33,886 nt of DNA from Syntrophaceae bacterium (GTDB lineage Bacteria; Desulfobacterota; Syntrophia; Syntrophales; Smithellaceae). The first letter of the stretch is position 1. Each line of letters opens with the position of its first letter. Under the pieces are notes generated by a model. The model saw only the letters and a program-made list of their open reading frames with translations. It was not told the DNA's origin and ran no database searches. The stretch lies in contig PLMQ01000017.1 of assembly GCA_003142535.1 (NCBI GenBank), positions 1,023-34,908 of the forward strand. The letters run 5' to 3'. This document shows, in pieces, positions 2,085-33,791 of the stretch. A program made the position numbers and the translations under genes.

Positions 2085-2678
2085 ATGATAAAATATCAAG
2101 AATTTTTATCACGGGATCATTTTAATTTTGAGGAAATTCTGGCAGCATCTTACGGGACTTTGATATCGGATCCGCCGCCACACTTAGATGGCCGGCTGCC
2201 GACACCACCTTTCCTGATGGTCGACAGGATATTGAAAGTGGAAAGCGATGGCAAACATGGAAGAATCATTGCGGAACAAGATATCCGTATGGATGCCTGG
2301 TATTTTCAGTGTCATTTCATTGGAGATCCCGTGCAGCCAGGTTGCCTCTGTGTTGATGCTGTCTGGCAGCTGTTAGGCTTCTATTGTCTCTGGCGCGGTG
2401 CTTTGGGTTATGGCCGGGCTCTGGGTTGCGGAGATATATCATTCAGCGGGCAGATCCGCCCTTTTAATAAATGTGTTAGATATGAAATTGCTGTCCGGCG
2501 TTATGCCCAATTGAAAGGTTCCGGTGCGGCAATAGTCGTCGGTGATGGCAAAGTCTTTGTGGATAATGAATTAATTGCCAGTGTTCAAGGTGCCAGAACG
2601 GGGATATTCAAGGGAATTGGATACACGGATTATCCCAATAGATCCCAAAATTCCATAGGCGGGATAATGGCAAAGTAA
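2085..2678 (+). CDS. FabA-type beta-hydroxyacyl-ACP dehydratase
   Basis: The 197-residue protein aligns with FabA through its length. It has the signature CHFIGDPVQPGCL, with catalytic His77 and Asp91 at the same 14-residue spacing as E. coli FabA His70/Asp84, followed by WQLLGFY. It also retains GRALGCGDISFSGQ. FabA-family enzymes dehydrate 3-hydroxyacyl-ACP, and some isomerise the double bond. It is longer than E. coli FabA (172), with about 10 extra residues at each end. The start follows GGAAAGAGAA. It is the first gene of a plus-strand lipid cluster, so a pathway-specific dehydratase is more likely than the housekeeping FabA. It is separated from the next gene by repeat A2. Confidence 0.9.
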   Translation: MIKYQEFLSRDHFNFEEILAASYGTLISDPPPHLDGRLPTPPFLMVDRILKVESDGKHGRIIAEQDIRMDAWYFQCHFIGDPVQPGCLCVDAVWQLLGFYCLWRGALGYGRALGCGDISFSGQIRPFNKCVRYEIAVRRYAQLKGSGAAIVVGDGKVFVDNELIASVQGARTGIFKGIGYTDYPNRSQNSIGGIMAK

Positions 2679-2723
2679 TATATACCTGCAATTTTTAATT
2701 TCCGGCGGTTGGCAATTTTATTA

Positions 2724-2895
2724 GTGAAACTCCAATTCCGTAACCAAAGCGCAGTGGAATTGGTAAGTTGAATTAATCCCGCGTGCGAAGCTTAGCGGGG
2801 CAATATAATTATCCCGCGAAGCGGAGGGTGTAATAAACTGCAGCGAGCTTAGGAATCCGTTTCCAAAGTTTGCCTTGGGGTTTACACCCGTGATT
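2724..2895 (+). repeat. Dispersed repeat family A, copy 2
   Basis: This shorter copy has the same ends as copy 1 (GTGAAACTCC and CCCGTGATT). The first hairpin is CCAATTCC/GGAATTGG. The last stem is GGGTGTAA (2826-2833) with TTACACCC (2882-2889), so its arm sequence differs from the other copies yet remains self-complementary. It occupies much of the 337-bp gap between the fabA-like gene and the small membrane protein gene. Confidence 0.78.
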
Positions 2896-3015
2896 ATCTT
2901 CAACAGCTTTTATAATTATAGACCAAATTTACATTATATAGATTTTTCTTGAAATTATATTCTACTTGAAGCTACTATCGCACACTTTTTAAATTCGATT
3001 GTTTGCGGGGATTTT

Positions 3016-3381
3016 TTGAGTATCGTAAAAAAAATAGCATTGTATTTTGCCCGTAAAGAATTCTGCCGGAAGGCAATTGCTGAACAAGCGGGCCTCAGCA
3101 TCTTTAAAAGGAAACCTTCTTTTAGAATAACTATCGGACTGGTTTTGATTGCCTTTAGTTATGTTATCGGTTTGCCGACAGCAATTATTTTGAGTATAAT
3201 TGTTGCAGCGCACAGTGATGCCATTACAGCCACCATTGCTGCTTCGCTTCTTTATGGTATTTCCTGGCTGATTTTTATGGTGGCCATGTATTTAGCGGGA
3301 CCTGAATATGGGAAGGCTTTAAGCCGCTGGGCTGTGCGGGTTATTCTGGAAAAAATTCTCAAGGACGAGGAGAAAACATAA
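3016..3381 (+). CDS. Small membrane protein of unknown function
   Basis: This is a 121-residue protein beginning with TTG after GCGGGG; no better ATG start is available upstream. The N-terminal 35 residues are basic. Two hydrophobic segments follow, at about residues 38-64 and 70-95, and the tail is charged and helical (about 96-121). I do not recognise the family. It lies between the FabA-like dehydratase and the first acyl carrier protein on the same strand, with 89 bp to the ACP start, so it is probably part of the lipid cluster. A role in membrane anchoring or handling of the lipid product is possible but unproven. Confidence 0.65.
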   Translation: MSIVKKIALYFARKEFCRKAIAEQAGLSIFKRKPSFRITIGLVLIAFSYVIGLPTAIILSIIVAAHSDAITATIAASLLYGISWLIFMVAMYLAGPEYGKALSRWAVRVILEKILKDEEKT

Positions 3382-3470
3382 GCTTCTCTAAATACGAATA
3401 ATTTGGGAAGCAACAAGATAAAAGACTAAAAAGCTCTGGCGATTGCCAGATTAAAATTTTGAGGTGTTCA

Positions 3471-3743
3471 ATGAGTCAACTTAATGAGTTAGTAGATGAA
3501 TTAAAAGTGAAGATCATTCAAGCTCTGGGCTTAATGGATGTTAAGCCTGAAGACATTAAGGACGATGCCCAACTGGTAGGCGGGGATACAGGCATTGATT
3601 CCATTGATGTGCTGGAGCTGGTGATGATGATTGAAAAGGACTACGGTGTTAAAATTGAGAGTAAAGAGTTAGGAGCAAAGGTTTTCGCTTCGGTGCGGGC
3701 ATTGGCCGCCTACATTTTTGAAAACCGGCGGAAAAAGGCTTAA
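3471..3743 (+). CDS. Acyl carrier protein 1
   Basis: The 90-residue acidic four-helix protein contains GIDSIDVLELV, where Ser44 is the expected 4'-phosphopantetheine site. The chosen start is ATG at 3471, preceded by GAGGTG at 3461; a TTG 12 bases earlier would overlap that ribosome binding site. The protein would carry the growing acyl chain as a thioester between the cluster's condensing enzymes, dehydratases and radical SAM enzymes. The next gene begins 2 bp after the stop. The sequence differs clearly from the second ACP at 6487, so the two may serve different steps or partners. A phosphopantetheinyl transferase must come from elsewhere in the genome. Confidence 0.93.
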   Translation: MSQLNELVDELKVKIIQALGLMDVKPEDIKDDAQLVGGDTGIDSIDVLELVMMIEKDYGVKIESKELGAKVFASVRALAAYIFENRRKKA

Positions 3744-3745
3744 GC

Positions 3746-5149
3746 GTGAGCTTAAGCAAAGATAATAGCCTTACATCTCGCGTAAGTTTTGCCTCTGCTA
3801 TGAAAATATTGTTTATATCCGCAAATACTCTGAAGATGCCGTATCCTGTATATCCGGTGGGACTCGATTATGTGGCAGGTTCTCTTGATTCTCAATATCA
3901 GTCTAAAATTGTGGATTTAAATGAATTTGCCACACTTACCGAGCTGGAAGAAGTAATTGTGGAATTTACACCTGATTTTATCGGAATATCAATCAGAAAT
4001 ATTGATAATACAGATACAACAAACTGCCGCGCCTTTCTGGAAGAATACAAAAACCTGGTTCGCCAGATTAGAAAAAAATCAACGGCCAGGATAATTCTGG
4101 GTGGCAGCGGATTTACAATTTTTCCGATTGAATTTATGCAAGCGCTGGATGCGGATTACGGTATTGTCGGCGAAGGAGAAAGACTGCCATTGCTACTGCA
4201 GGCGTTGGAAAAGAAAACTGATGTACGAAACCTGCCGGGGGTTGTGGTAAAAGAAACAACCGATATTGTTTATGGGCCTTATGAATGTGAAACAAAAAGG
4301 AGCTTTAATCCCGATAGCTCTCATACCAAATTCTATCTATCCAAGGGAGGCATGCTCAATCTGCAAACTAAAAGGGGTTGCCCTTTTCATTGCGTTTATT
4401 GCACTTATCCGCACATTGAAGGCAGCAAAATGAGGTTTTTCCCGCCTCCGGAAATAGCCCAAAAAGCCCGCGAGTTGCAGGATGCCGGAGCCAAATATAT
4501 TTTTATTACCGATTCCGCGTTTAACGCCAGCTATGAACATAGCATTGATGTGGCCAAGGCATTTATCGACTCCGGTATTTCGATACCCTGGGGCGGTTTT
4601 TTTGCTCCCACCACACCGCCGCCGGACTATTTCCGGCTATTGGCCGATGCGGGCTTAAGCCATGTGGAATTTGGTACGGAATCATTATCAGATAAGATGC
4701 TGGCCAGCTTGCAAAAACCGTTTGTTGCAAAAAATGTTTTTACTGCCCATAGCATCGCTCTTCAGGCCGGCCTGAACATAGCCCATTATTTTCTTTTGGG
4801 TGGCCCCGAAGAAAACAGAAAGACTTTAAGTGAAACGTTAAATGGTGTCGATAAATTGGAAAAGTCTGTTTTTTTCTTTTTTTGCGGCATCCGTATTTAC
4901 CCTAATACAAAATTATACGAGGTTGCTCTGCGCGAAGGCCAGATTACGAAAGGTCAAAATCTTTTGCAGCCTGTTTTTTACAGGTCGCCGCACATAACAG
5001 CCCAGGATATTATACAAACAGTGGAAGAACACGCTGCCTCGCGTTTCAACTGGATAGTTGGTTCCGGAGAAAACAAGGCAACCCGAATTCTTCCTAAACT
5101 ATATGACCGGGGATTAACCGGCCCTCTTTGGGAGCACCTTATCCAATGA
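3746..5149 (+). CDS. B12-binding-domain radical SAM protein
   Basis: The N-terminal region (about residues 19-150) has the Rossmann-like B12-binding fold pattern, starting KILFISAN with YPVGLDYVAGSL. A radical SAM domain follows (about 205-400) with the CxxxCxxC cluster motif at C212, C216 and C219 (CPFHCVYC). Proteins of this BchE/HpnJ-like class methylate, cyclise or rearrange unactivated carbons. The substrate is probably an ACP- or lipid-bound chain, judged from the neighbours. The GTG at 3746, 2 bp after ACP1, has an AAAAGG before it; an ATG at 3800 (Met19) would also preserve the whole B12 domain. The stop overlaps the next start as ATGA. The reaction cannot be named from sequence. Confidence 0.88.
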   Translation: MSLSKDNSLTSRVSFASAMKILFISANTLKMPYPVYPVGLDYVAGSLDSQYQSKIVDLNEFATLTELEEVIVEFTPDFIGISIRNIDNTDTTNCRAFLEEYKNLVRQIRKKSTARIILGGSGFTIFPIEFMQALDADYGIVGEGERLPLLLQALEKKTDVRNLPGVVVKETTDIVYGPYECETKRSFNPDSSHTKFYLSKGGMLNLQTKRGCPFHCVYCTYPHIEGSKMRFFPPPEIAQKARELQDAGAKYIFITDSAFNASYEHSIDVAKAFIDSGISIPWGGFFAPTTPPPDYFRLLADAGLSHVEFGTESLSDKMLASLQKPFVAKNVFTAHSIALQAGLNIAHYFLLGGPEENRKTLSETLNGVDKLEKSVFFFFCGIRIYPNTKLYEVALREGQITKGQNLLQPVFYRSPHITAQDIIQTVEEHAASRFNWIVGSGENKATRILPKLYDRGLTGPLWEHLIQ

Positions 5150-5964
5150 GGACGAAGCAAAAGGTCATTTCTCCGGCTCAAGCCATGGGAATAATCCTCC
5201 TTTCTGCTGCTGTGCTCATCTTTTTTTTAAATCCCTTAATTGCTGCCGCCGTTGCCTTTTTCTATATTATCTTATGCATTGTCGCTTCCTTCTTTCCGGA
5301 AACTAATTTCTTCGGACCCGTTATCAGCCATGGTAATACCGGGGGAAAATGGGTTGCTCTAACCTTCGATGACGGCCCCTCAGTGCCGGTAACACGACAA
5401 ATTCTTGATTTACTGGATAAATATTCAATGAAGGCAACTTTCTTTGTTTCCGGCGTCAACGCCTCCCGTCATCCGGATATAATCAGAGAGATAATTGACC
5501 GCGGTCATTCTATCGGCAACCACTCATTTAACCATAATCCCTTTTTAATGTTGAAAAGTTATCGAACCATTTATTATGAAGTATCCGCTACGCAGGAAAT
5601 ATTGCAGAAATTAGGAGTAAAGACGCTGGCCTTTCGTCCGCCGGTGGGAATAGTTAATCCCAAGCTTGCCCCGATTCTGGATAAATTGGGGATGTATTGC
5701 GTAACTTTCAGCTGCCGGGCAGGCGATGCCGGTAATCGCTATGTAAAACATATCAGCCGGGAAATTCTGAAAAAAGTAAAGGCCGATGACATAATTTTGC
5801 TGCATGATATACCGCCGTCTGAAAAGGTTGATAGCGGAATCTTATTAGCGGAAATAGAGGCTCTGCTTTCCGGCCTCATATTAAAAGGCATAGAGGTTGT
5901 GCCGCTTTCCATTTTAATCAATAGAGAAGTAACAATTGTCGAGAAAGTTAAAACTCAGCGATAA
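5146..5964 (+). CDS. Membrane-anchored polysaccharide deacetylase-fold (NodB) protein
   Basis: The start at 5146 gives an ATGA overlap with the radical SAM stop; a TTG 18 bases upstream is less likely. Two adjacent hydrophobic segments (about residues 13-30 and 32-50) anchor the protein. The NodB domain (about 69-260) shows TFDDGP (D75/D76), the metal-binding pair in NHSFNH (H126/H130), FRPP (R164) and LLHD (H220/D221), so the carbohydrate esterase family 4 catalytic set looks intact. Known members remove N- or O-acetyl groups from polysaccharides or glycolipids. Its tight coupling to acyl-chain genes suggests the final product may carry a sugar or amino-sugar head group, or that it hydrolyses another bond. 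That role is inference. Confidence 0.87.
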   Translation: MRTKQKVISPAQAMGIILLSAAVLIFFLNPLIAAAVAFFYIILCIVASFFPETNFFGPVISHGNTGGKWVALTFDDGPSVPVTRQILDLLDKYSMKATFFVSGVNASRHPDIIREIIDRGHSIGNHSFNHNPFLMLKSYRTIYYEVSATQEILQKLGVKTLAFRPPVGIVNPKLAPILDKLGMYCVTFSCRAGDAGNRYVKHISREILKKVKADDIILLHDIPPSEKVDSGILLAEIEALLSGLILKGIEVVPLSILINREVTIVEKVKTQR

Positions 5965-6008
5965 AAATTGTAAAGAACGAAATTAATCATTGACCTTATA
6001 AAAATATT

Positions 6009-6037
6009 TTGATTGAAAAAACAATCGGTGATATAGA
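6009..6037 (+). promoter_or_regulatory. Weak internal promoter candidate
   Basis: The 127-bp gap before the FabZ-like gene is the largest spacing between 3471 and 12755. It holds TTGATT (6009-6014) and TATAGA (6032-6037) with a 17-bp spacer. Both boxes match consensus at four of six positions. It could start a second transcript for the downstream half of the cluster. Confidence 0.3.
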
Positions 6038-6091
6038 TATTTATTGTTTTATAAAGACCCGAATATCAGCTGAAGGTGAAAAAGGAAGATT

Positions 6092-6472
6092 GTGAAAGAT
6101 CAATGGCATTTGCTCAGAGAGGTTAAAGCGGTAGAGCCCAATAAAATCGAGGCCTTAGCTCACGTGCCGGAGGATTCGCCCTGGTTTTTAGGGCACTTTC
6201 CCGGCGAGCCGATTCTTCCGGGGGTGGCAATAGTCCATATTGCTGAGCAGGCAATTATCAAAGATGCGGAAGGTCGGGGAGAGGAAATACATCTGGATGG
6301 ATTGAAAAGAGTGCGGTTTACCCAGCCGGTACGTCCCGGAGAAGTTTTGTCAATCAATATCAACAGAGACGAAGCAGGCGAAAAAGCTTTATATGCATTC
6401 AAGGTGTCCAGTAAAGAAAATATTGTTTGCAGCGGGTTAATCGTTGCCGGTATAAAAAAGATTAAGGAATAA
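6092..6472 (+). CDS. FabZ/hot-dog-fold protein with altered active site
   Basis: The 126-residue protein carries the FabZ-like segment GHFPGEPILPGVAIVHIAEQA (shown in parts: GHFPGEP, ILPGV). His35 matches the catalytic His. The residue 14 positions later, Glu in FabZ and Asp in FabA-like enzymes, is His49; Glu52 is close by. It may therefore be a modified dehydratase, an isomerase or a structural or accessory hot-dog protein. The GTG start follows GGAAG; no ATG is available near it. It is shorter than FabZ (about 150 residues). ACP2 starts 14 bp after its stop. The family is clear; the activity is uncertain because of the substituted residue. Confidence 0.85.
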   Translation: MKDQWHLLREVKAVEPNKIEALAHVPEDSPWFLGHFPGEPILPGVAIVHIAEQAIIKDAEGRGEEIHLDGLKRVRFTQPVRPGEVLSININRDEAGEKALYAFKVSSKENIVCSGLIVAGIKKIKE

Positions 6473-6486
6473 AGAAGGAGGTATTG

Positions 6487-6759
6487 ATGCCTGAAAGCAA
6501 TGATATCAAGGGCATTATTAAGCGGGTGAGCGAGATCATTATTGAAGAGCTCAAACTGGAAGATATTACGGTGGCGACATTCAATCCGGATTTGGATCTG
6601 ATCGATGAGTTGGGTATTGATAGTATGGATCTGGCGACCATAGCCCTGGTTTTGCAGGATGAATACAAGATAGTTATTGATGAAGACGATTACCCGAAAT
6701 TAAAGACAGTTCGCCTGATCGCCGAATATATTCAGGGGAAAAAAACCGAAAAGAATTAG
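6487..6759 (+). CDS. Acyl carrier protein 2
   Basis: This 90-residue ACP has DELGIDSMDLATI, with Ser46 as the phosphopantetheine attachment site. The ATG at 6487 follows AAGGAGG with ideal spacing; the TTG directly before it is not needed. The third-helix region EDDYPKLKTVRLIAEYI is typical of chain-building ACPs. It sits between the FabZ-like protein and two paralogous radical SAM enzymes, which suggests that those enzymes act on chains attached to this carrier, while ACP1 is paired with the B12 radical SAM enzyme. This pairing is drawn from gene order only. Confidence 0.93.
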   Translation: MPESNDIKGIIKRVSEIIIEELKLEDITVATFNPDLDLIDELGIDSMDLATIALVLQDEYKIVIDEDDYPKLKTVRLIAEYIQGKKTEKN

Positions 6760-6778
6760 TTGCTGAAAATAATTGTCC

Positions 6779-7873
6779 ATGACCATTAACGATAAATTAT
6801 CTCCGAAAAAAGCCAAACCAAAATTTTCTGAACTCTTGTCCCATCCGGAAGTTAAAGAAAGATGGGAAAAGGTGCGGCAATATTTTTTTCTGCGGGAATC
6901 GACCTATGATATGAGCAACCGCTGTAACCTTCGTTGTGACGGCTGTTATTATTATGAAGGCGATAAGCAGTTTGCCGTAGAAAACGGTGAGGCGGATGCC
7001 TGGCGCAAATTGATGCGGGAAGAAAAAGCGCGCGGTATAACATATGTTGTTCTGGCCGGAGCAGAGCCTTCTTTAGTTCCGGAGCTTTTAGATGTTTGTT
7101 ATCAGGAAATGCCGCTGGGAAGTATTGCCACCAATGGGTTCAAAAAAATTCCGGAATCTGTCGGCTATAAAATTCATATTTCCGTGTGGGGCAATGATGA
7201 AACGAGTTTGCGTGTCCGCAAAGCTAAAAAACTGCTGAAAAAGCAGATCGAGAATTACAGAAATGATCCCCGGGCGGTGTTTGTCTATACGTTTACGCGG
7301 GAAAATATTGACGAAGTATATGATGTTGTCCATGACCTGTTTGCTGAGGGCTGTAAGTTGACATTTAATGTTTTTTCATCGCCTGTTGGATACAAGGGCT
7401 TATTACGTCATAATGATGATTCCTTACAGCGTACGGAAAACGCAATGATTGATCTCGTTAAAAAATATCCGCAAAATGTTCTTTTTTCTGTTTACAATGC
7501 GGTGGCGCATACACACAAGAGTGGCCTGCATGATCTTTTCAGCTGCTCTTATCCCCGCCAGAACCGTTCGCAGGATATCGGGTTGGGAAGGTCTTTCCGT
7601 CAATACAGAACGGACTTGAACTGGGACAGATCTGCTGCCTGCTGTGTGCCTGATACAGACTGCGCGGATTGTCGGCACTATGCCGCAGGTTCGGCAGTTG
7701 TTACGGCGCGCCTTTACCGCCATGTAAACAATCTGGATACGTTTAAATCCTGGCTGGATTATGTGGACACATATCTGGCGGTCTGGGTGATGGGTTATGA
7801 AAAAGGAGAAAATCTTTGTACGGAGCCGGTCACCCCGCCGCCGGCTGCTTCAGCCCGGGCAAGCATGAAATAG
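6779..7873 (+). CDS. Radical SAM enzyme with C-terminal cysteine motif (paralogue 1)
   Basis: The radical SAM motif is CNLRCDGC (C49, C53, C56), preceded by YDMSNR, with a gly-rich GAEPSL segment (SAM-binding GGEP equivalent) about 45 residues later. Near residues 287-297 the protein has CCx5Cx2C, a plausible ligand set for an auxiliary Fe-S cluster as in SPASM/twitch proteins. The ATG at 6779 is chosen over a TTG at 6773; neither has a strong ribosome binding site, so coupling to the ACP2 stop 19 bp upstream is possible. The next gene, 19 bp downstream, is a paralogue with the same architecture. The C-terminal 30 residues are low-complexity and Pro/Ala-rich. The substrate is unknown. Confidence 0.87.
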   Translation: MTINDKLSPKKAKPKFSELLSHPEVKERWEKVRQYFFLRESTYDMSNRCNLRCDGCYYYEGDKQFAVENGEADAWRKLMREEKARGITYVVLAGAEPSLVPELLDVCYQEMPLGSIATNGFKKIPESVGYKIHISVWGNDETSLRVRKAKKLLKKQIENYRNDPRAVFVYTFTRENIDEVYDVVHDLFAEGCKLTFNVFSSPVGYKGLLRHNDDSLQRTENAMIDLVKKYPQNVLFSVYNAVAHTHKSGLHDLFSCSYPRQNRSQDIGLGRSFRQYRTDLNWDRSAACCVPDTDCADCRHYAAGSAVVTARLYRHVNNLDTFKSWLDYVDTYLAVWVMGYEKGENLCTEPVTPPPAASARASMK

Positions 7874-7892
7874 AATTAAAGGATAGTATTGA

Positions 7893-8891
7893 ATGAATAC
7901 GGTAAGCTCATTATTGGATAAAGATTGGCACGAACGTTATAAGCGCATCGCCAAGCTCAATATTCGCAGTTCGATATATGATGTTACGAACAGATGCAAT
8001 TTACGCTGTAAGGGCTGTTTTTTCTTTTCTTCCAATGAGCATATAGCCGCTCAAGAGGAAATGGATATAAAAAAGTGGGAAGAATTTATTGACCATGAAA
8101 AGGAACGCGGCGTCAACCTCGCTATTTTGATTGGTGGCGAGCCGACCCTGTGTATGGATAGAGTGGAGGCTTTTTATAAACGGATTCCATCATATTGTGC
8201 CACCAATGGCTTAATTAAAGTTGACCGCAATAAATTTCCCGACATGATGGTGGGAATTTCTCTGTGGGGCGGCGGAGAAGACGAAAAGATTCTGCGCGGG
8301 CGCGACACTTTTGCCATCTCCAGCAAAAATTATGCTGGAGATCACTATGCCTATTATCTTTATACCATAACACCTCGCCAGGTAGGAAAAATAGAACCGG
8401 TGATCAAACGGATAGTGGATGTTGGTTTGAAAGTACATCTGCAGCTATTGTCCAATGATGAAGGCGTTGACGGTTTCTCCTGGAAAGAGAGCGAGCTGAA
8501 AGATTTACGCCTGGAAATGGATGAGGTGTTGGATAAATATCCGCAAACGTTAATTTCCAGCAAATATTATCATGAAGTTATCACAACAGGAAAAATGCTG
8601 GGCAGGTCTTTCGGCTGGATGGAATGCCCTTCTGTAACGGAAGCGTTGGATAATAGAAAACCTCAACCGCGCCGGCTGATACATTTTGTTCGCTGGGCTT
8701 CCGATTTAAAGACAGTGCACCGCTGCTGCACTTCGGCAACACGTGACTGTTCAACCTGCAAGGACGGCGCCGCGCATATGAGCTGGATTATGGTTAGTAA
8801 ACGGGCCCATGTTTCTTCAACCAAAGATCTGCAAAATTGGATTGAAGTTTATGAAATGTTTGCAAAACTGTACAGCCTTATTCCCTGGTAA
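7893..8891 (+). CDS. Radical SAM enzyme with C-terminal cysteine motif (paralogue 2)
   Basis: This is a paralogue of the preceding gene. CNLRCKGC (C35, C39, C42) follows YDVTNR, and IGGEPTL is the SAM-binding segment. A CCx6Cx2C motif lies near residues 275-285, matching the arrangement in paralogue 1. The protein lacks the Pro-rich tail of paralogue 1. The ATG at 7893 follows AAAGGA. The condensing enzyme gene starts 7 bp after the stop. Paired radical SAM enzymes next to ACPs and condensing enzymes are a feature of loci proposed for ladderane or other unusual anaerobic lipids; they could act as a heterodimer or in sequence. The reaction is unknown. Confidence 0.87.
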   Translation: MNTVSSLLDKDWHERYKRIAKLNIRSSIYDVTNRCNLRCKGCFFFSSNEHIAAQEEMDIKKWEEFIDHEKERGVNLAILIGGEPTLCMDRVEAFYKRIPSYCATNGLIKVDRNKFPDMMVGISLWGGGEDEKILRGRDTFAISSKNYAGDHYAYYLYTITPRQVGKIEPVIKRIVDVGLKVHLQLLSNDEGVDGFSWKESELKDLRLEMDEVLDKYPQTLISSKYYHEVITTGKMLGRSFGWMECPSVTEALDNRKPQPRRLIHFVRWASDLKTVHRCCTSATRDCSTCKDGAAHMSWIMVSKRAHVSSTKDLQNWIEVYEMFAKLYSLIPW

Positions 8892-8898
8892 TACTTAA

Positions 8899-10149
8899 AT
8901 GTCTTCTAAAAAAGCAGTTATTTTAGGGTATGATTGTGTTTCTTCTTTAGGAACTGATTTGGAAACCCAGTGGCAGCGGGCAGTAGCCGGAGAATCGGGC
9001 ATAGCGAAGTTAACCAGATTTCCGATCCCTCCGGGATTCCCCGTCCATGTCGCCGGAGAAGTCGCCGATATTGATGTGCGTCCCTATCCTTTTTTGCAGC
9101 CGCGGGAAATGGCGCACTGGACATCGCCCATTTTTAAATATGCGTTGTTGGTAGTTTATCGGGCATTGGAGAGAAGCGGCCTGGCCATTACAAAAGATAT
9201 TGCTCCGCGTGTTGCGATAACTTTCAGTTCCGCGGTGGGCGGTCTGGATGCAATATTGCATGCTGACCGTATGCTGATTGCGGAAAATAAATTACCCCAT
9301 CCCTTCGCCAACCCCAATTCCTGCATTAATATGGTCGGCGGCAAGGTTTCGATTTTTACAGGTGCAACTGGCCCCATTTGTTCGACCATTACGGCTTGTG
9401 CTACGGGCATAACTTCTTTAATTATCGGGGAAATGATGCTCGAACGGGGAATAGCAGATGTTGTTATAGCAGGGGCAGTTGATTTCCCGCTGGTTGAGCC
9501 GATAGTTGCCGGTTTTGCCACAATGAACGGTGCTTACCGGCCCAAAGAAGGGCAGCCCGATGAGTCTCCGGAAAAAACAAGCAGGCCGTTTTCTATCAAT
9601 CGCAGGGGGTTTGTCGTTTCGGAGGGTGCCGGTTGTATTATTCTGGCGTCGGCAGAATTTGCGAAAGCGCACAGATTGAAGCCTAAATTCACCATGGCCG
9701 GATGGGGAATGACATCCGATGCCAGCCATTCTGTATCACCTAATTTGACAACGGTACAAAGATGCATGGAGGAAACAATTGCCCGTGCCGAGTTGCAGCC
9801 GAAAGACCTGGATGCGGTTAACGCTCATGCGACCTCGACAAAGGTCGGTGATAAAGTGGAAGCCGATGCGCTGCATAACATTTTTGGCAAGAAATTACCG
9901 CCGGTATCAGGGAACAAATCACAGCTGGGACACGCGATGGGTGCATCGAGTGCAATAGAAACAATTCTGGCAATGGAAGGAATGCTGCGCGATACATTAC
10001 TGCCCACGATAAATTATATTCCCGATCCGGCAATTGATATTGATTGTGTTGCCGAAGGGGCCAGGAAATTAACTCAGGAATTTGTCTTGAAGAATTCATT
10101 TGGTTTCGGCGGTTGCAATTCCTGTGTTATACTGCACAGGATTATTTGA
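8899..10149 (+). CDS. Beta-ketoacyl-ACP synthase (FabF-like), first copy
   Basis: The 416-residue condensing enzyme has the complete Cys-His-His triad: C167 in TACATG, H310 in NAHATST and H345 in KSQLGHAMGA, plus a GFGGCNS C-terminal motif. It would extend acyl-ACP with malonyl-ACP. The ribosome binding site is weak, and it is probably translated by coupling to the upstream radical SAM gene (stop 8891). Sequence is clearly diverged from the second KAS just downstream, so this is not a recent duplication. It lacks any fused domain. It belongs to the FabF/KAS II group rather than FabH, because it has the CHH rather than the CHN triad. Confidence 0.93.
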   Translation: MSSKKAVILGYDCVSSLGTDLETQWQRAVAGESGIAKLTRFPIPPGFPVHVAGEVADIDVRPYPFLQPREMAHWTSPIFKYALLVVYRALERSGLAITKDIAPRVAITFSSAVGGLDAILHADRMLIAENKLPHPFANPNSCINMVGGKVSIFTGATGPICSTITACATGITSLIIGEMMLERGIADVVIAGAVDFPLVEPIVAGFATMNGAYRPKEGQPDESPEKTSRPFSINRRGFVVSEGAGCIILASAEFAKAHRLKPKFTMAGWGMTSDASHSVSPNLTTVQRCMEETIARAELQPKDLDAVNAHATSTKVGDKVEADALHNIFGKKLPPVSGNKSQLGHAMGASSAIETILAMEGMLRDTLLPTINYIPDPAIDIDCVAEGARKLTQEFVLKNSFGFGGCNSCVILHRII

Positions 10150-10162
10150 AAAACGGAAGATT

Positions 10163-11428
10163 ATGAAAGCACCGGAAAACAGAAAAGTATTTGTAGTTGG
10201 TTACGGAATGGCGACTCCTCTGGGCAGTACGTTTGAAAAAACATGGAAAAGGGCAGTTAAGGGGGAGGCCGGCTTCCGTAAAGTTACGCGTTGTAAAGTG
10301 GAATCAGTCTGTGACGTGGTAGGCGAGATACCGGACTGGTATCCGCTGGAACTTGATTTTACCGATGCCAAAGAAGTCTATAACTGGAATGCCGCCTTCG
10401 TTATCCTGACAATTGCCGTTTGCAAAGAAGCCCTGCTGAATTCGGGAATTACTATCGACGAAAAAATAGCTCCGCGCATGGCGTGCCTCATTGGCTCCGC
10501 TTTAAATGGAACCGATGCTTTTCGAGTAGCGATGCATGATCTGGAACACCGCGGGCCGCTGAGAGTGAGCCCCTATTTGCTACCCAATTTATGCGCCAAT
10601 TTGCCTGCGGGCAAAGCCGGAATGCTCCTGAAATTTACCGGACCGATATTTTCTCCTCAGGGCGCCTGCGCTTCCGGCAATCATGCTATCGGTATCGGCG
10701 CCAGAATGATCCGTGATGGTGATTGCGATTTTGTTTTGGCCGGCGGCGCTGATGCCCCGATTCTACCCGAACTGATTCATGGCTTTGCCAATATGAATGC
10801 GACGATTAAAGTCAATCCCCATGATCGTGCTTATGCCGATCCGGCGCAAGCATCGCGCCCCTTCAGCCTCGACCGTAAGGGATTTGTTCTTTCGGAAGGA
10901 GCAGGAGTGGTTGTGCTGGCAGCCGAAGATGTTATTAAAGCTCATGGTTTAAAACCTAAGGCGGAAGTGTTAGGTATCGGCTGGACATCGGATGCTTATC
11001 ACTATACCAGCCCCAATCCGGTAACTATCGTTCGAGCTATTCGTGAAACCATCGATGATGCCGGTTTGAAGCCGGAAGATATTCAATATATCAATGCTCA
11101 CGGAACATCCACACCCAAAGGCGATCGCACCGAAGTAAAATGTCTGCGTGATGTTTTCGGGAAGAAAATAGAAAAGATTCCCATATCTTCCAATAAATCA
11201 CAATTGGGGCATACACTGGGGGCGACTGCGGCCATAGAAGCTGCTTTAACCATTGAGGGTATGCGCAAGGGAATTATCTTGCCGACCATTAATCATATTC
11301 CTGATCCGGAATTTTCGGATATTGATGTTGTTCCTAATGCTGCCCGTAAACAAAAATATGAAATTGCGCTTTCCAACGCCTTTGGTTTTGGCGGTACGAA
11401 TTGCTGTATAATATTCAGGGGGGTATAA
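10163..11428 (+). CDS. Beta-ketoacyl-ACP synthase (FabF-like), second copy
   Basis: The ATG at 10163 follows GGAAG and gives 421 residues; an upstream in-frame start at 10100 lies inside the previous gene and was not used. The active-site Cys169 lies in GACASG, with H313 in NAHGTST and H350 in KSQLGHTLGA. The C-terminus has NAFGFGGTN. Because Cys, His and His are all present, this is not a chain-length factor of the type II polyketide kind; both KAS proteins should be catalytically competent. They may form a heterodimer or act at different chain lengths. Spacing to the first KAS is 13 bp and to the thioesterase is 2 bp. Confidence 0.93.
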   Translation: MKAPENRKVFVVGYGMATPLGSTFEKTWKRAVKGEAGFRKVTRCKVESVCDVVGEIPDWYPLELDFTDAKEVYNWNAAFVILTIAVCKEALLNSGITIDEKIAPRMACLIGSALNGTDAFRVAMHDLEHRGPLRVSPYLLPNLCANLPAGKAGMLLKFTGPIFSPQGACASGNHAIGIGARMIRDGDCDFVLAGGADAPILPELIHGFANMNATIKVNPHDRAYADPAQASRPFSLDRKGFVLSEGAGVVVLAAEDVIKAHGLKPKAEVLGIGWTSDAYHYTSPNPVTIVRAIRETIDDAGLKPEDIQYINAHGTSTPKGDRTEVKCLRDVFGKKIEKIPISSNKSQLGHTLGATAAIEAALTIEGMRKGIILPTINHIPDPEFSDIDVVPNAARKQKYEIALSNAFGFGGTNCCIIFRGV

Positions 11429-11430
11429 AT

Positions 11431-11910
11431 ATGCGGCCCAAGCCATTTCAGCCCGAAATATTTAATAATGATTCGCATTATGTACGTGACCTGACGACCG
11501 GACTGATCTGGCATCGTTGTGAATACCGGACTCTATACGCTGATACGGATCGCTCTGAAGTGGTCTATCACGCCAATTACCTGCGTTATTTTGAATTCGG
11601 CCGGACTTCTCTTATGCGCGATGTCGCTTATGCCTATAAGGAAATAGAAGAAAGCGGCTTTGTTTATCCGATTATCGATCTGGGAATAAACTTTTTTCAG
11701 CCTCTTTATTACGATGATCTGATGTATATCTACACGCGCCCGACAAATCTGGAAAGAGTCCGTTTGCAGTTTGACTATGTCATTACCCACGCAGGGAAAG
11801 GCCATCTGGTCTGCATCGGTTTTACTAAACATTGCGCTTTAAATTCATCGGGAACTCCTGTCGCTGTTGACCCGAAGACGGTTCACCTATGGAAAACGTT
11901 TCCCGTTTAA
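11431..11910 (+). CDS. YbgC/4HBT-family acyl thioesterase
   Basis: The hot-dog thioesterase signature YADTDRSEVVYHANYL is present, with Asp40 in the position of the catalytic Asp of YbgC-type enzymes, and RYFEFGR follows. The ATG at 11431 follows AGGGGGG; the upstream TTG at 11401 lies within the KAS gene. The 159-residue protein would hydrolyse acyl-ACP or acyl-CoA and so could release the finished chain or remove stalled intermediates. Its last 22 bases overlap the start of the dehydratase gene, indicating translational coupling. Typical YbgC proteins are about 135 residues; the extra N-terminal 30 residues are not recognised. Confidence 0.88.
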   Translation: MRPKPFQPEIFNNDSHYVRDLTTGLIWHRCEYRTLYADTDRSEVVYHANYLRYFEFGRTSLMRDVAYAYKEIEESGFVYPIIDLGINFFQPLYYDDLMYIYTRPTNLERVRLQFDYVITHAGKGHLVCIGFTKHCALNSSGTPVAVDPKTVHLWKTFPV

Positions 11911-12755
11911 ATCAAAAACAGCGCTATCCGTTACAATTAAAGGTACATCCTTATTTATTCGACCACTATCTGGATGGGAAAACAATTCTTCCGGCAGTGG
12001 AAGCCCTGATTGTTCTGGCTAAAGCCGTTAAACTTCATTTTCCAAAGATTAATATTAATTGTTTACACAATGCGCGTTTTCCCCGTTTTTTAATTATGGA
12101 GCCGGAAGTAAAAAGTCTGAATGCCTTTGTTGATTTGTCTGATTCCGGCACTGGCGTAATTGCCGCATCTCTCACGACATCAGTAAAGACAAAAGCAGGA
12201 AATATCACCCGCATGCTTGAGCATGCTTATGTAGAATTTAATATCAATACTCCTGATTCCATTCCCGTCCATCCTTTTCGGTCATTCGAGAAACTGTCGG
12301 GAAAATGCATCAATATACCGGCGGATTCGGTTTACCGTGAACTGGTGCCTTTCGGCCCAGCCTATCAAAATATTATTGGAGATCTTTCCCTTTCGCCGGA
12401 TGGTGCGCTGGCATATCTTTCTGGAGGCAACCGCGAAGTTGATGATGACATTCTCGGTTCGCCTTTTCCTTTCGATGCAGTAATGCACGCCGCCTGCGTC
12501 TGGACACAACGTTTTACCGATGTAGTTCCCTTTCCCGTTGGTTTTGACAAAAGAATAATTTATCAAAAGACAAGCAAAGAAAAAACTTATCTGAGCAGAA
12601 TTATACCTGTAAAGTTCGATAAAGAGCCTTTTGTTTTTAATGCCTGGATATTTGATTTGCAGGGAAATGTTTGTGAAGCAATCGATGGATTGCAGATGAG
12701 AGATGTGAGTCAGGGGAAGAGAAAACCACCATCATGGATAAAAGAAGAATCATAA
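11889..12755 (+). CDS. Stand-alone PKS-type dehydratase (double hot-dog)
   Basis: The protein has two hot-dog halves like the dehydratase domain of modular polyketide synthases. The first half holds HxxxGxxxxP (H26, G30, P35), and the second holds the DxxxH motif (D196, H200). PFGPAYQNI at about 154-162 resembles the conserved YGPxFQ segment. Both catalytic residues are therefore present. It would dehydrate 3-hydroxyacyl-ACP to the 2-enoyl form, adding to the FabA-like and FabZ-like proteins of the same cluster. Its start overlaps the thioesterase gene by 22 bp, and its stop overlaps the transposase ATG as TAATG. The last 14 residues (Lys/Pro-rich) could have been altered by the transposase-gene insertion. 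Confidence 0.85.
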   Translation: MENVSRLNQKQRYPLQLKVHPYLFDHYLDGKTILPAVEALIVLAKAVKLHFPKININCLHNARFPRFLIMEPEVKSLNAFVDLSDSGTGVIAASLTTSVKTKAGNITRMLEHAYVEFNINTPDSIPVHPFRSFEKLSGKCINIPADSVYRELVPFGPAYQNIIGDLSLSPDGALAYLSGGNREVDDDILGSPFPFDAVMHAACVWTQRFTDVVPFPVGFDKRIIYQKTSKEKTYLSRIIPVKFDKEPFVFNAWIFDLQGNVCEAIDGLQMRDVSQGKRKPPSWIKEES

Positions 12756-13405
12756 TGGTATCAAGTAATGTCAATAACCGTCTAAATAGTTCTCAGCGAA
12801 AGGTCATCAGGTTGCCGAATTACGATTATGCCCAGCCCGGAGCCTATTTCGTTACAATATGTACACAGAAAAATAAAAGTTGTTTTGGCGTAGTAACAAA
12901 GGATGAATTATTGCTGAATGACGCGGGTAGAATGATTGAGAAATGGTATTTTGAAGTGATGAGTAAGTTTCAGGATATTAAATGTTGTGAATATGTTGTT
13001 ATGCCGAATCATTTTCATTGTATCATCGAAAACGTAGGGGCAGACCTGCGTGTCTGCCCTGAATGTTCAAGGAAATCATCTTCGGCAGATAATGATTCTC
13101 TTGGAAATTTGGGCGAACACATAGGTTCGCCCCTACAACGAATAATTCAATGGTTTAAAACAATGACGACAAATGAGTATATTCGTAACGTAAAGCAAAA
13201 TGGTTGGCAACCATTTGACAAAAAATTATGGCAACGTGGTTATTATGAGCATGTCATTCGAAATGAAGCTGAATGGTTGACCGCCGCGCAATATATCCTC
13301 GATAATCCCCTTAAGGTAGTAATAAATAATAATCTTGAGGGGATGGTGAAAAAGGTTTGTCATTCCGCTGAGAGAAGAGAAGAGAAATCATTTTTTAGAA
13401 TATGA
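12755..13405 (+). CDS. REP-associated tyrosine transposase (RAYT, Y1_Tnp family)
   Basis: The RAYT pattern begins LPNYDYAQPGAYFVTICTQ and includes the metal-binding HxH in MPNHFHCII. The catalytic Tyr is probably in GYYEHVIRNE, with ILDNPLK near the end. These enzymes are HUH-type single-strand endonucleases related to IS200/IS605 transposases, and they move short palindromic REP sequences. The frame is uninterrupted but contains an in-frame segment of about 34 codons (VGADLRVCP...GEHIGSPLQ) encoded by two REP-like hairpins. The ATG at 12755 overlaps the dehydratase stop; an ATG at 12734 is an alternative. It stands in the middle of the lipid cluster, and plsY begins 24 bp downstream, so the operon appears to be kept intact. 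Confidence 0.9.
   Translation: MVSSNVNNRLNSSQRKVIRLPNYDYAQPGAYFVTICTQKNKSCFGVVTKDELLLNDAGRMIEKWYFEVMSKFQDIKCCEYVVMPNHFHCIIENVGADLRVCPECSRKSSSADNDSLGNLGEHIGSPLQRIIQWFKTMTTNEYIRNVKQNGWQPFDKKLWQRGYYEHVIRNEAEWLTAAQYILDNPLKVVINNNLEGMVKKVCHSAERREEKSFFRI
13034..13136 (+). repeat. Pair of REP-like hairpins inside the RAYT gene
   Basis: The segment is bounded by GTAGGGGC (13034) and GCCCCTAC (ending 13136). Each end forms its own hairpin: GGGCAGAC/GTCTGCCC (13038-13059) and GGGCGAAC/GTTCGCCC (13111-13132). This bracketed arrangement is typical of REP doublets mobilised by RAYTs. Here it is kept in frame and translated. Confidence 0.8.
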
Positions 13406-31172: not shown

Positions 31173-33791
31173 TCATTTGGCACGGGTCTGCCGGGAGTAC
31201 CATTGCATCTGCTGTGCGCTGCTTTCTTGATCCACGTTTTCTTCGGCTATCATTTTCTCGCCGCGTGCCGGCGGCAATACTTCCTTGAGCTTCCATATAT
31301 TATCCAGGCGGCCGAATGTCCAGTACTCCTCAAAGGGTGATACATATTGCTGCTGGCTTAAGACAATTGTGCCTTTGCGGACAATTTTTTGGGCATGGGC
31401 GCTGATGCGGACGGTGAACTCGTCTTTTGCCAGGTCGGCATAGTTTCTGATCAGAATTAATTCCGCCTTGCGAACGCAAAGATTCCTGTATTCCGTCACC
31501 ATGCCTTCCATCTGCCATTGCTTTATCTGATTGCGCAAGCTTTCGGCGACTTGCGGGAACAAGTCCGCCTCCGGCACGCAAGCCGGATCATTTGCTTCCC
31601 TTGCCAGATAGACGTTTAAAAATACCTGGCGTGTCCGCTCCAGCATGAGACTGCGATCCCAAATTTTGTCTGTCTGCACGAGAAAGTTCAAAACACGGTC
31701 AATGCGTGTTGCTTTTTGCTGTGTTGATTTTTCCAGCCAGGGACCGGCGGTGCCTTCTTTTGCGGCTGTATCTTCGTAAATTCCCTTTATTGTTTGGTCG
31801 GTCAGCATTTCGACAAAGTTTTCATCCTTGAGGATATCCGATTCACCGGACTGCTCAATTTCGCGTAGCAGCCAGTGATTTCCCGAAAGCTGAAATGTCC
31901 AGAACTCCTGAAACTGAGCAGGTCGTTCATCCCCCCGCAAAAATTTATTGGTGCGGTCGTCAACATAGTAGTCTCGTGCGGAAGCTGTGATGAGTGCGGT
32001 AAACTCGCGCTGATCGGGCTTTTCTGTGTAACGGACATTGACAATGTCCACCTGCTTGACCTTGAGTTCATCAATCTTGTTTATCTCGTTGTTTCGTATC
32101 AGCCCCTGAAGCTGTGCTGCATGCTGGACAAAGAGGTCATCCATAAGCAGAATCTTCATCGGCGCGTAATCACGTTTTTGCCAGCATTCTTGAAGCTTGC
32201 AAAAAGTCGCTTCGCTCAGAGTTCGTAATTCCTGTGGTGATAATGATGAATCCTGTTTGCTTATAAAATTGAGGAGCTTTTCGGTTTTCAGAGATTTCTT
32301 GGTTATTTCAGACCGGCTGTAAACGTAATCCAAATTCTCGTCTTTGCCGGGTTTCTTCTTTTTTATGATAACGATTACAATTGTCCCGATAATTAGCAGA
32401 ATGATGAACCACTCGAAAATATCATCAGAGGAAGAGCCGCTGCCTGAACCGGAACTTCTTGAACTAGAATGGCTGAAACCACCACCACCCTTGTTGTGCA
32501 CCACAAAATCATCCGCGAGAAATGTATGCGGCTGATTCACGCTGAGATTATAGACTAATTGTTTTTCTTTACTCTCATCTATTTCGAGAACTGTGGCCGG
32601 AATCAGGGAGCCATTATCCAGGAAAAACATTTTATCGTTCGGACGAAGCCGGCCTGCGGCGACGAACGTCCCGTCAGTCAATCCTACCGGATGCTCAGCG
32701 GTTGTCCGCAATTCGCCCCGGTTAGTTTTAATAGATAATACGTGACTGCGTGTGGCAAATAGTTTCTCCACATGGGCATTTATGATATGCCCGTCCTGAT
32801 CAACAGCCTGCACGGTATCGTTTGCCGAAAGGTTTTCGATAGGAATCTGTCCCGCTGGTGTGCGGATTATTGTACCGATGGGAAAGCAGCCGCCTCCACC
32901 GCCTTTGTTGTGGACAGCAAGGCCTGCGGCAAAGAATGTGTTTGGCTGATCGGTTTGTAGATTGTAAACACGTACATGTTTATAAACCTTCTGCAGAGAA
33001 ACGATACGCTGTTCCGATAGGGATTGGCCATTCCAGGCGAAAATTGTATCACCCGCTTTAAGGACATCCAGCGTTTTGAAAGTGCCACGCCCTGTATAGA
33101 AGGGGTGCTCCGCGGTTACCTGAAGAGTATTCAGGTCGGTCTTAAGCAGAATGTACTCGTCCACTTTGTGACGAATGACTTCTCTCACTTTTGTATGGAC
33201 TATGTTGCCTTCCGGCGAATATGACAATAATTCATCACCGCGCCTGACGGCACTGATAAGAATTTTTGTGCCATCCGCTTTTAGAATTTCGCTGTCCGGG
33301 AGAAAACATCCTTTATTGTGAACGACGATATTGGCGGGAATGAACGTTCCGCCCGGGACGACAAGCAAATTATAGGCAGGCTGATTGGATTGGCTGTGTC
33401 GAACAGACTTAACAGGAACGGCATGAAGGATGCCCTTGCTGATTTGATAAATATTATCTCCCGCTTGGAGCAACCGCGCTATACGGAATTCACCCGGCCC
33501 TACCATTACCGGATGCTCCGGGGTGATGAGAAACTTGTTCTCACCTGCGGAAATCTCTAGATAATCATCCGGATGAACTTCGGTCAGCACCTGTACAGTG
33601 CCTGTTTGCAGCTTGCCTATGGAGATGCTCCAGACCGGATCGCCCACGCGGAGCTTCTCAATGGCGATGGCGCCTGAGGGCGTCAGTACCAGTGTGCCCC
33701 TGGCGAGGCAACCGCCGCCACCACGCGCAAAGGCAGGAGAAGAAGCAAAAACACCAAGCAGTATAAATGCCGCAACAGCCCATCTTTTCAT
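31173..33791 (-). CDS. Membrane protein with three tandem HINT domains and two Tim44-like modules
   Basis: The start is ATG 33791 after GGGGAG (872 residues). A signal peptide (1-22, ending AFA) is followed by RGGGG and three intein-like HINT domains: C28-N159, C162-N295 and C302-N433. Each starts with Cys, has a T-x-E-H block (T90-H93, T226-H229, T364-H367) and ends VHN before KG. The linkers are KG, KGGGGG and KGGGG. A Ser/Gly-rich stretch (435-455) and a membrane helix (about 458-476) follow. Two Tim44-like modules occupy about 500-630 and 675-850 (FQEFWTF and FEEYWTF). Removing all three HINT units would leave an ordinary Gly-rich signal-anchor Tim44-like protein. Splicing, cleavage or none of these could be true; Lys at the +1 position argues against standard splicing. 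Confidence 0.9.
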   Translation of the reverse strand: MKRWAVAAFILLGVFASSPAFARGGGGCLARGTLVLTPSGAIAIEKLRVGDPVWSISIGKLQTGTVQVLTEVHPDDYLEISAGENKFLITPEHPVMVGPGEFRIARLLQAGDNIYQISKGILHAVPVKSVRHSQSNQPAYNLLVVPGGTFIPANIVVHNKGCFLPDSEILKADGTKILISAVRRGDELLSYSPEGNIVHTKVREVIRHKVDEYILLKTDLNTLQVTAEHPFYTGRGTFKTLDVLKAGDTIFAWNGQSLSEQRIVSLQKVYKHVRVYNLQTDQPNTFFAAGLAVHNKGGGGGCFPIGTIIRTPAGQIPIENLSANDTVQAVDQDGHIINAHVEKLFATRSHVLSIKTNRGELRTTAEHPVGLTDGTFVAAGRLRPNDKMFFLDNGSLIPATVLEIDESKEKQLVYNLSVNQPHTFLADDFVVHNKGGGGFSHSSSRSSGSGSGSSSDDIFEWFIILLIIGTIVIVIIKKKKPGKDENLDYVYSRSEITKKSLKTEKLLNFISKQDSSLSPQELRTLSEATFCKLQECWQKRDYAPMKILLMDDLFVQHAAQLQGLIRNNEINKIDELKVKQVDIVNVRYTEKPDQREFTALITASARDYYVDDRTNKFLRGDERPAQFQEFWTFQLSGNHWLLREIEQSGESDILKDENFVEMLTDQTIKGIYEDTAAKEGTAGPWLEKSTQQKATRIDRVLNFLVQTDKIWDRSLMLERTRQVFLNVYLAREANDPACVPEADLFPQVAESLRNQIKQWQMEGMVTEYRNLCVRKAELILIRNYADLAKDEFTVRISAHAQKIVRKGTIVLSQQQYVSPFEEYWTFGRLDNIWKLKEVLPPARGEKMIAEENVDQESSAQQMQWYSRQTRAK

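Follow-up and report, generated by a model that had tools for sequence, protein, structure and literature searches.

The window, the whole stretch of 33,886 nucleotides of Syntrophaceae DNA that was analyzed, contained on its minus strand an 872-residue frame (31173-33791) which encoded a signal peptide, the residues RGGGG, three HINT units, a Ser/Gly linker, a single transmembrane helix, and a pair of Tim44-like domains, as judged from the translation and from Pfam. This range was counted from the start MKRW, and the open frame continues further upstream. The predicted signal peptide was assigned by reading the sequence and covers residues 1-22 (33726-33791), with cleavage between AFA and R; a signal peptide followed by (A)RGGGG was the layout common to the relatives. 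Its removal would leave RGGGG (residues 23-27, 33711-33725) as the N-extein, and these residues were invariant in 20 aligned three-unit proteins. The HINT units were delimited with profiles and a tree of units. Unit 1 (class alpha, residues 28-159, 33315-33710) is 132 residues long, with Cys28, TPEH, and a final HN159; unit 2 (class beta, the most conserved, residues 162-295, 32907-33308) has 134 residues, with Cys162, TAEH, and HN295; and unit 3 (class gamma, residues 302-433, 32493-32888) has 132 residues, with Cys302, TAEH, and HN433. Alignment with the relatives showed that the entire spacer between the first two units is Lys-Gly (residues 160-161, 33309-33314), and in the translation, as in relatives, the second spacer is KGGGGG (residues 296-301, 32889-32906).

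After the third unit, KGGGG and a Ser/Gly-rich linker (residues 434-457, 32421-32492) read KGGGGFSHSSSRSSGSGSGSSS, starting KGGGGFSHSSS, and this region had low pLDDT in the full-length model. It is followed by a transmembrane helix (about residues 458-478, 32358-32420), which was a helix in the model, and then by KKKKPGK. The first Tim44-like domain (residues 510-647, 31851-32264) was found by Pfam, and the second (about residues 688-829, 31305-31730) was a second Pfam stretch that also matched NCBIfam NF033779 below its cut-off. The positively charged KKKKPGK suggests that the Tim44 domains are probably cytoplasmic, and because the protein has a signal peptide and positive residues behind its membrane helix, the HINT array would lie outside the cytoplasm. 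An earlier sequence-only reading had described three tandem HINT units that each start with Cys, carry a T-x-E-H block, and end in VHN (at N159, N295, and N433) followed by Lys-Gly, with RGGGG, KG, KGGGGG, and KGGGG as flanks, and all of these details, coordinates included, were correct.

Profile searches agreed with the HINT and Tim44-type identities proposed in that reading. For the whole protein, Pfam reported PT-HINT (E 7e-25, three stretches), Intein_splicing (E 5e-16), Hint, and Tim44 (PF04280; E 1e-22, 84.1 bits versus a gathering cut-off of 29.6, two stretches), and the NCBIfam intein_Nterm and intein_Cterm splicing models matched above their cut-offs. All three units singly exceeded the PT-HINT (PF07591) gathering cut-off of 27.7 bits, with scores of 30.6-39.1, while the sole Pfam match in the C-terminal 437 residues was Tim44. 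A PT-HINT search of the window's own genome gave no further match beyond the array gene. The first unit was only 27% and 32% identical to the other two; given this divergence, and given that the catalytic columns alone were invariant among 48 units, the array is not a product of chance.

The HINT fold, on whose presence the sequence-only reading had staked its proposal, was present in an AlphaFold model of unit 2, which was built from an alignment of 48 units (from the window and its relatives) and had a mean pLDDT of 97.4. The nearest solved fold was BIL2, encoded at the BUBL1 locus of Tetrahymena (6Y75; Z 22.1, rmsd 1.4 over 132 residues), of which 6TMM is also a structure, followed by the C. 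thermocellum BIL (2LWY; Z 21.0, rmsd 1.4 over 130 residues), mini-inteins (Z about 20-21), and two Hedgehog autoprocessing structures (Z about 20.8); in this comparison, Z values within about 1 of each other were regarded as ties. Sequence profile comparison placed 2LWY clearly first (E 1.2e-23, the next being 4e-15). The full-length model, with a pTM of 0.45, was adequate for the domains and not for the mutual arrangement of the units.

Analysis of the neighboring genes identified one constant partner. A gene for a small DUF350-like membrane protein of about 90 residues (a weak match, E 1e-4, below the Pfam cut-off) adjoined the Tim44 gene in 77 of the 80 loci with room for it, nearly always just upstream. 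The window genome carries this gene on the minus strand, immediately outside the window, at about 33982-34251 (3505-3774 of L136). It was also present beside a HINT-less family member (L132), and in another locus (L133) it was on the other side of the Tim44 gene. The DUF350-like gene and the double-Tim44 gene are a conserved pair in many phyla. Beyond the DUF350-like gene, also outside the window and on the minus strand, is a LemA gene (34315-34902; 3838-4425 of L136). LemA was considered as a universal neighbor and rejected, as it was found at only 23 loci, mostly deltaproteobacterial. In a genome of the same family as the window genome (L214 7576-7764, G017:C20), codons 1-31 of LemA (58% identical) continue into the final 33 codons of HINT-Tim44 (82% identical). 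This fusion is the scar of a deleted operon, so the DUF350-like gene was apparently lost along with LemA and HINT-Tim44. Elsewhere in the window, a fatty-acid/polyketide-like gene run (2085-11910), with a FabA-like dehydratase, two ketosynthases, a thioesterase, and radical SAM proteins, and a REP-associated transposase-like protein of the Y1 type (12734-13405, plus strand) were recognized by eye.

Relatives were collected by scanning 84,980 species genomes with the double Tim44 domain alone, a query that is unbiased toward HINT. The 80 loci found came from more than 10 phyla, with hosts in the Desulfobacterota, Verrucomicrobia, Lentisphaerae, Kiritimatiellota, Planctomycetes, Nitrospirae, Myxococcales, Elusimicrobia, Legionella, Riflebacteria, Auribacterota, and Sumerlaeota, and in single bins, possibly mis-binned, labeled Chloroflexota and Acidobacteria. 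Among the 71 proteins with complete N-termini, two had no unit, 19 had one, 24 had two, 24 had three, and two had four, and true orthologs with two, three, and four units occurred within the sample of the window's phylum. The survey of unit number proposed in the sequence-only reading thus gave a range of zero to four across more than 10 phyla. Insertion into a Gly-rich linker, another of its claims, was upheld by HINT-less homologs (L132, and the ordinary Tim44 proteins of L005-L017), which keep an uninterrupted Gly-rich linker at this place. In a sample of 59 genomes from the window's own family and order, a search with the Tim44 part recovered only unrelated HINTs or ordinary one-domain Tim44 proteins, which have RxGGGRSFGSRG-type linkers and lack HINT.

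A quick tree of the units with SH-aLRT support separated three classes by position: alpha, the first units (46 rows, support 99); beta (63 rows, 95); and gamma (43 rows, 88), which comprised third and fourth units and the single units of Elusimicrobia. Since the tree splits by position, the positions are old and orthologous across phyla. There were later duplications of beta units in three proteins (L084, L095, L115), and at least 22 changes of unit number were counted on the Tim44 tree. Some sister proteins (L060/L061 and L064/L066) are one unit apart, with an in-frame Gly linker remaining. The dN/dS of gene pairs was 0.05-0.28 for the units and 0.05-0.20 for Tim44; in other words, purifying selection on the units was about as strong as on Tim44. 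Distances between units correlated with distances between Tim44 domains (Mantel r 0.64 and 0.72, with 0 of 2000 permutations as high). The congruence of the two trees was moderate, with a shared nearest neighbor in 20 of 45 cases, possibly due to horizontal exchange of units or to low resolution. The alpha class is the least constrained. Some alpha units are shortened to 103-113 residues or lengthened to about 167 residues (unit 1 of L082, L085, L094, and L110, and of L083, L088, and L089), and keep Cys1 and HN-KG.

The positions conserved in the units were the catalytic ones. Cys1, the block-B His, and the terminal His-Asn were present in all 152 full units and the block-B Thr in 150, and nothing else was invariant; likewise, the alignment of 48 units had just five invariant columns, all catalytic. 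Block F had Asn in 145 of the 152 units, a position that is usually Asp in inteins (PMC7765530). The residues at the junctions were equally constant. Gly preceded Cys1 in all readable cases except one. After His-Asn, the +1 residue was Lys at 158 of 159 junctions and Met at the other (L128), never Arg, Cys, Ser, or Thr, and the +2 residue was Gly at all 159. The absence of +1 Cys, Ser, and Thr is shared with type-A BILs and departs from class 1 inteins, and the sequence-only reading had rightly pointed out that Lys is not a standard splicing nucleophile; here the Lys proved to be fixed across the whole family. It was encoded by AAG in 97 cases and by AAA in 61, and because both codons are in use, the Lys is held at the protein level. 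Where an alpha unit adjoined a beta unit, the spacer was exactly Lys-Gly (50 of 50), and 11 of 11 extra junctions from four genomes outside the first set were also Lys-Gly. In the 20 aligned three-unit proteins, RGGGGC and all three Lys residues after His-Asn were invariant, and the Ser/Gly linker beyond them varied.

Other HINTs sampled in the phylum had Cys (in terminase-like inteins), Ser, Asn, Gln, or Glu at +1, and not Lys. A DNA pattern for VHNKGG(G) matched at 11 places across 395 genomes of the phylum, all of them array positions of the HINT-Tim44 family, and one of six HINT-less Tim44 linkers had a Lys within the first 12 residues. Since other HINTs lack the +1 Lys and the pattern is confined to the array, the Lys is part of the HINT signature of this family rather than a general trait of Gly linkers.

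Several other HINT-containing proteins were noted in passing. Two exported proteins have a C-terminal HINT followed by a Gly tail only: a small lipoprotein-like protein (L011 1311-2003) ending HN-CGGGGGGGSGGGGQ, and a FecR-like protein (L015 588-1928) ending HN-SSGGGGNK. Terminase-like proteins of two loci from the same phylum as the window (L143, L150) contain mini-inteins ending HN-C, with the canonical +1 Cys. One further HINT, from the phylum of an Elusimicrobia genome, lies within a 12189-residue open frame (L200, G526:C1), with Lys-Asp repeats after HN-C.

Comparison with known HINT systems showed resemblances to several of them. Like the type-A BIL of C. thermocellum (2LWY), the units have the HINT fold, an N-terminal Cys, TxxH, and a terminal His-Asn, and lack Cys, Ser, or Thr at +1. 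Unlike type-A BILs, the units of the Tim44 array occur as one to four in series, in one conserved family from more than 10 phyla, with Gly at -1, Lys at +1, and Gly at +2 fixed, and we know of no fixed +1 residue in type-A BILs. The units thus have every tested fold and catalytic-residue feature of a type-A BIL; their host, however, is a conserved protein, whereas BIL hosts have been described as variable regions of non-conserved proteins (PMC7765530, PMC5874633). BIL2 of BUBL1 (6Y75, 6TMM) has the nearest fold and is also preceded by an Arg-Gly-Gly-type sequence, described as an RGG motif (PMC9200820), and the BUBL1 polyprotein locus, like the Tim44 array, contains more than one BIL. BUBL1 is eukaryotic and has ubiquitin-like domains between its BILs, whereas the spacers here are 2-8 Lys/Gly residues and the array is carried by a Tim44 protein that bacteria export.

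The units share the fold, blocks A and B, and the terminal His-Asn with class 1 mini-inteins (such as the Mtu RecA and Ssp DnaB splicing domains); the array differs in having no +1 Cys, Ser, or Thr, in having Asn for the usual Asp in block F, and in not lying in a conserved catalytic site. Pretoxin HINT (PF07591) was the best Pfam match above a curated cut-off, but downstream of the array there is a membrane helix with two Tim44-like domains and no toxin domain. Bacterial Tim44-like proteins (PF04280, NF033779) have the same signal peptide, Gly/Ser-rich linker, transmembrane helix, and Tim44-like domain or domains; the ordinary ones from the same order are about 320-360 residues long, with no HINT and one Tim44 domain, whereas the array family has two Tim44 domains and the DUF350-like neighbor. 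Neither the HINT fold nor ligation in the absence of a +1 nucleophile is new; the novel features here are the tandem array, the conserved Tim44 host, and the fixed Lys-Gly. A literature search found no paper joining Tim44 with a Hint domain or PT-HINT, though it covered the BIL literature incompletely and a prior mention is possible.

The best explanation, with about an even chance of being right, is that the units are type-A-BIL-like and self-excising, and probably join RGGGG to Lys-Gly, the acceptor being a Lys amine. After export, Cys1 would attack the preceding Gly to form a Gly-thioester, and cyclization of the terminal Asn would cut the chain before Lys+1, whose amine would then take the Gly acyl group. 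The units would be lost, and RGGGG would be joined to the Lys-Gly-rich linker on the Tim44 anchor, giving RGGGG-KG-KGGGGG-KGGGG... as the product in the window. This reaction is preferred because the units keep all of the residues that it needs, together with a fixed Lys at the acceptor position, and the complete lack of Arg at +1 favors amine chemistry over mere charge. The sequence-only reading had listed stepwise cleavage, branching, crosslinks, and release as outcomes; by analogy with the known systems, autocatalytic excision with amine ligation appears the best supported.

The separate steps differ in their likelihood. Cleavage at both ends of a unit is likely, and that ligation follows, rather than cleavage alone, is perhaps slightly favored. 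If there is ligation, a Lys amine is very probably the acceptor. The acceptor amine could be the freed alpha-amine, in the manner of type-A BILs, or the epsilon-amine, in the manner of Tetrahymena BIL2; the sequence does not distinguish the two, but the alpha-amine is more likely. For type-A BILs, it has been proposed that a thioester forms at Cys1, the terminal Asn cyclizes, and the freed amine then attacks the thioester, which would allow ligation without a +1 nucleophile (PMC4031507). BIL2 is reported to form an isopeptide bond to a Lys of the downstream domain (PMC8616854); this acceptor lies in the ubl5 domain and, in the accessible text, is not described as a +1 residue. Its counterpart here would be the fixed Lys+1.

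Reviews report mostly cleavage products for type-A BILs (PMC4031507, PMC7664689), so ligation may be a minor outcome in the array as well. The Asn that stands in block F for the Asp usual in inteins also counts against the proposed mechanism. A less probable but serious alternative is that the units only cleave, cutting their own ends and being shed into the periplasm, so that the Tim44 anchor gains a Lys-Gly-Gly N-terminus, as a maturation step or a timer. This would agree with the predominance of cleaved products among BILs without a +1 nucleophile (PMC7664689, PMC4031507). It would also fit an N-extein that, once the signal peptide is removed, is RGGGG; nothing useful need be joined, and because the mature N-extein would be five residues only, ligation adds little to the product. 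Cleavage alone nevertheless leaves unexplained the near-constant +1 Lys (158 of 159 cases, never Arg) and the fixed RGGGG and Gly-1.

It is rather doubtful that the acyl group is passed to an outside nucleophile (a protein Lys, a peptidoglycan amine, or a lipid), as in Hedgehog or BUBL, with the units serving to tag or anchor. The Gly-rich donor end and the two Hedgehog structures among the near folds would suit such a transfer, and BIL2, the nearest fold, reportedly attaches its upstream domain to other proteins (PMC8616854). However, the only transferable piece would be RGGGG, too short for an obvious tag, and neither the conserved HN nor Lys+1 would be needed with an outside acceptor.

The frequent changes in unit number, with close pairs one unit apart, look as if units were gained and lost harmlessly, as would be expected of selfish mini-inteins parasitizing the Gly-rich linker without a host function. 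This is very unlikely, as units of 132-134 residues contain no homing endonuclease, +1 Cys, Ser, or Thr is missing, the alpha, beta, and gamma positions are orthologous across phyla, unit and Tim44 distances correlate, and the HINT-unbiased scan found just two HINT-less members. Least probable of all is that the HINT folds have no catalytic activity and are retained as a structural or binding ectodomain, with which the length of the array is compatible, since the only invariant unit positions are the catalytic ones, the opposite of catalytic loss.

Under self-excision with ligation to a Lys amine, the mature protein would barely depend on the number of units, which would explain why that number changes so often. 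The conserved Gly/Cys...His-Asn/Lys-Gly units are a natural set for testing Lys as a HINT acceptor in bacteria, and the array connects the BILs of bacteria with the Tetrahymena BIL that conjugates to lysine. It could also provide a compact ligation tool that needs no Cys, Ser, or Thr at the junction. Use of the epsilon-amine of the fixed +1 Lys is improbable, but it would give the linker of an envelope protein isopeptide-linked Gly-Lys steps and free alpha-amines and, if true, would represent ubiquitin-like bond formation that takes place outside the bacterial cytoplasm and needs neither ATP nor an enzyme.
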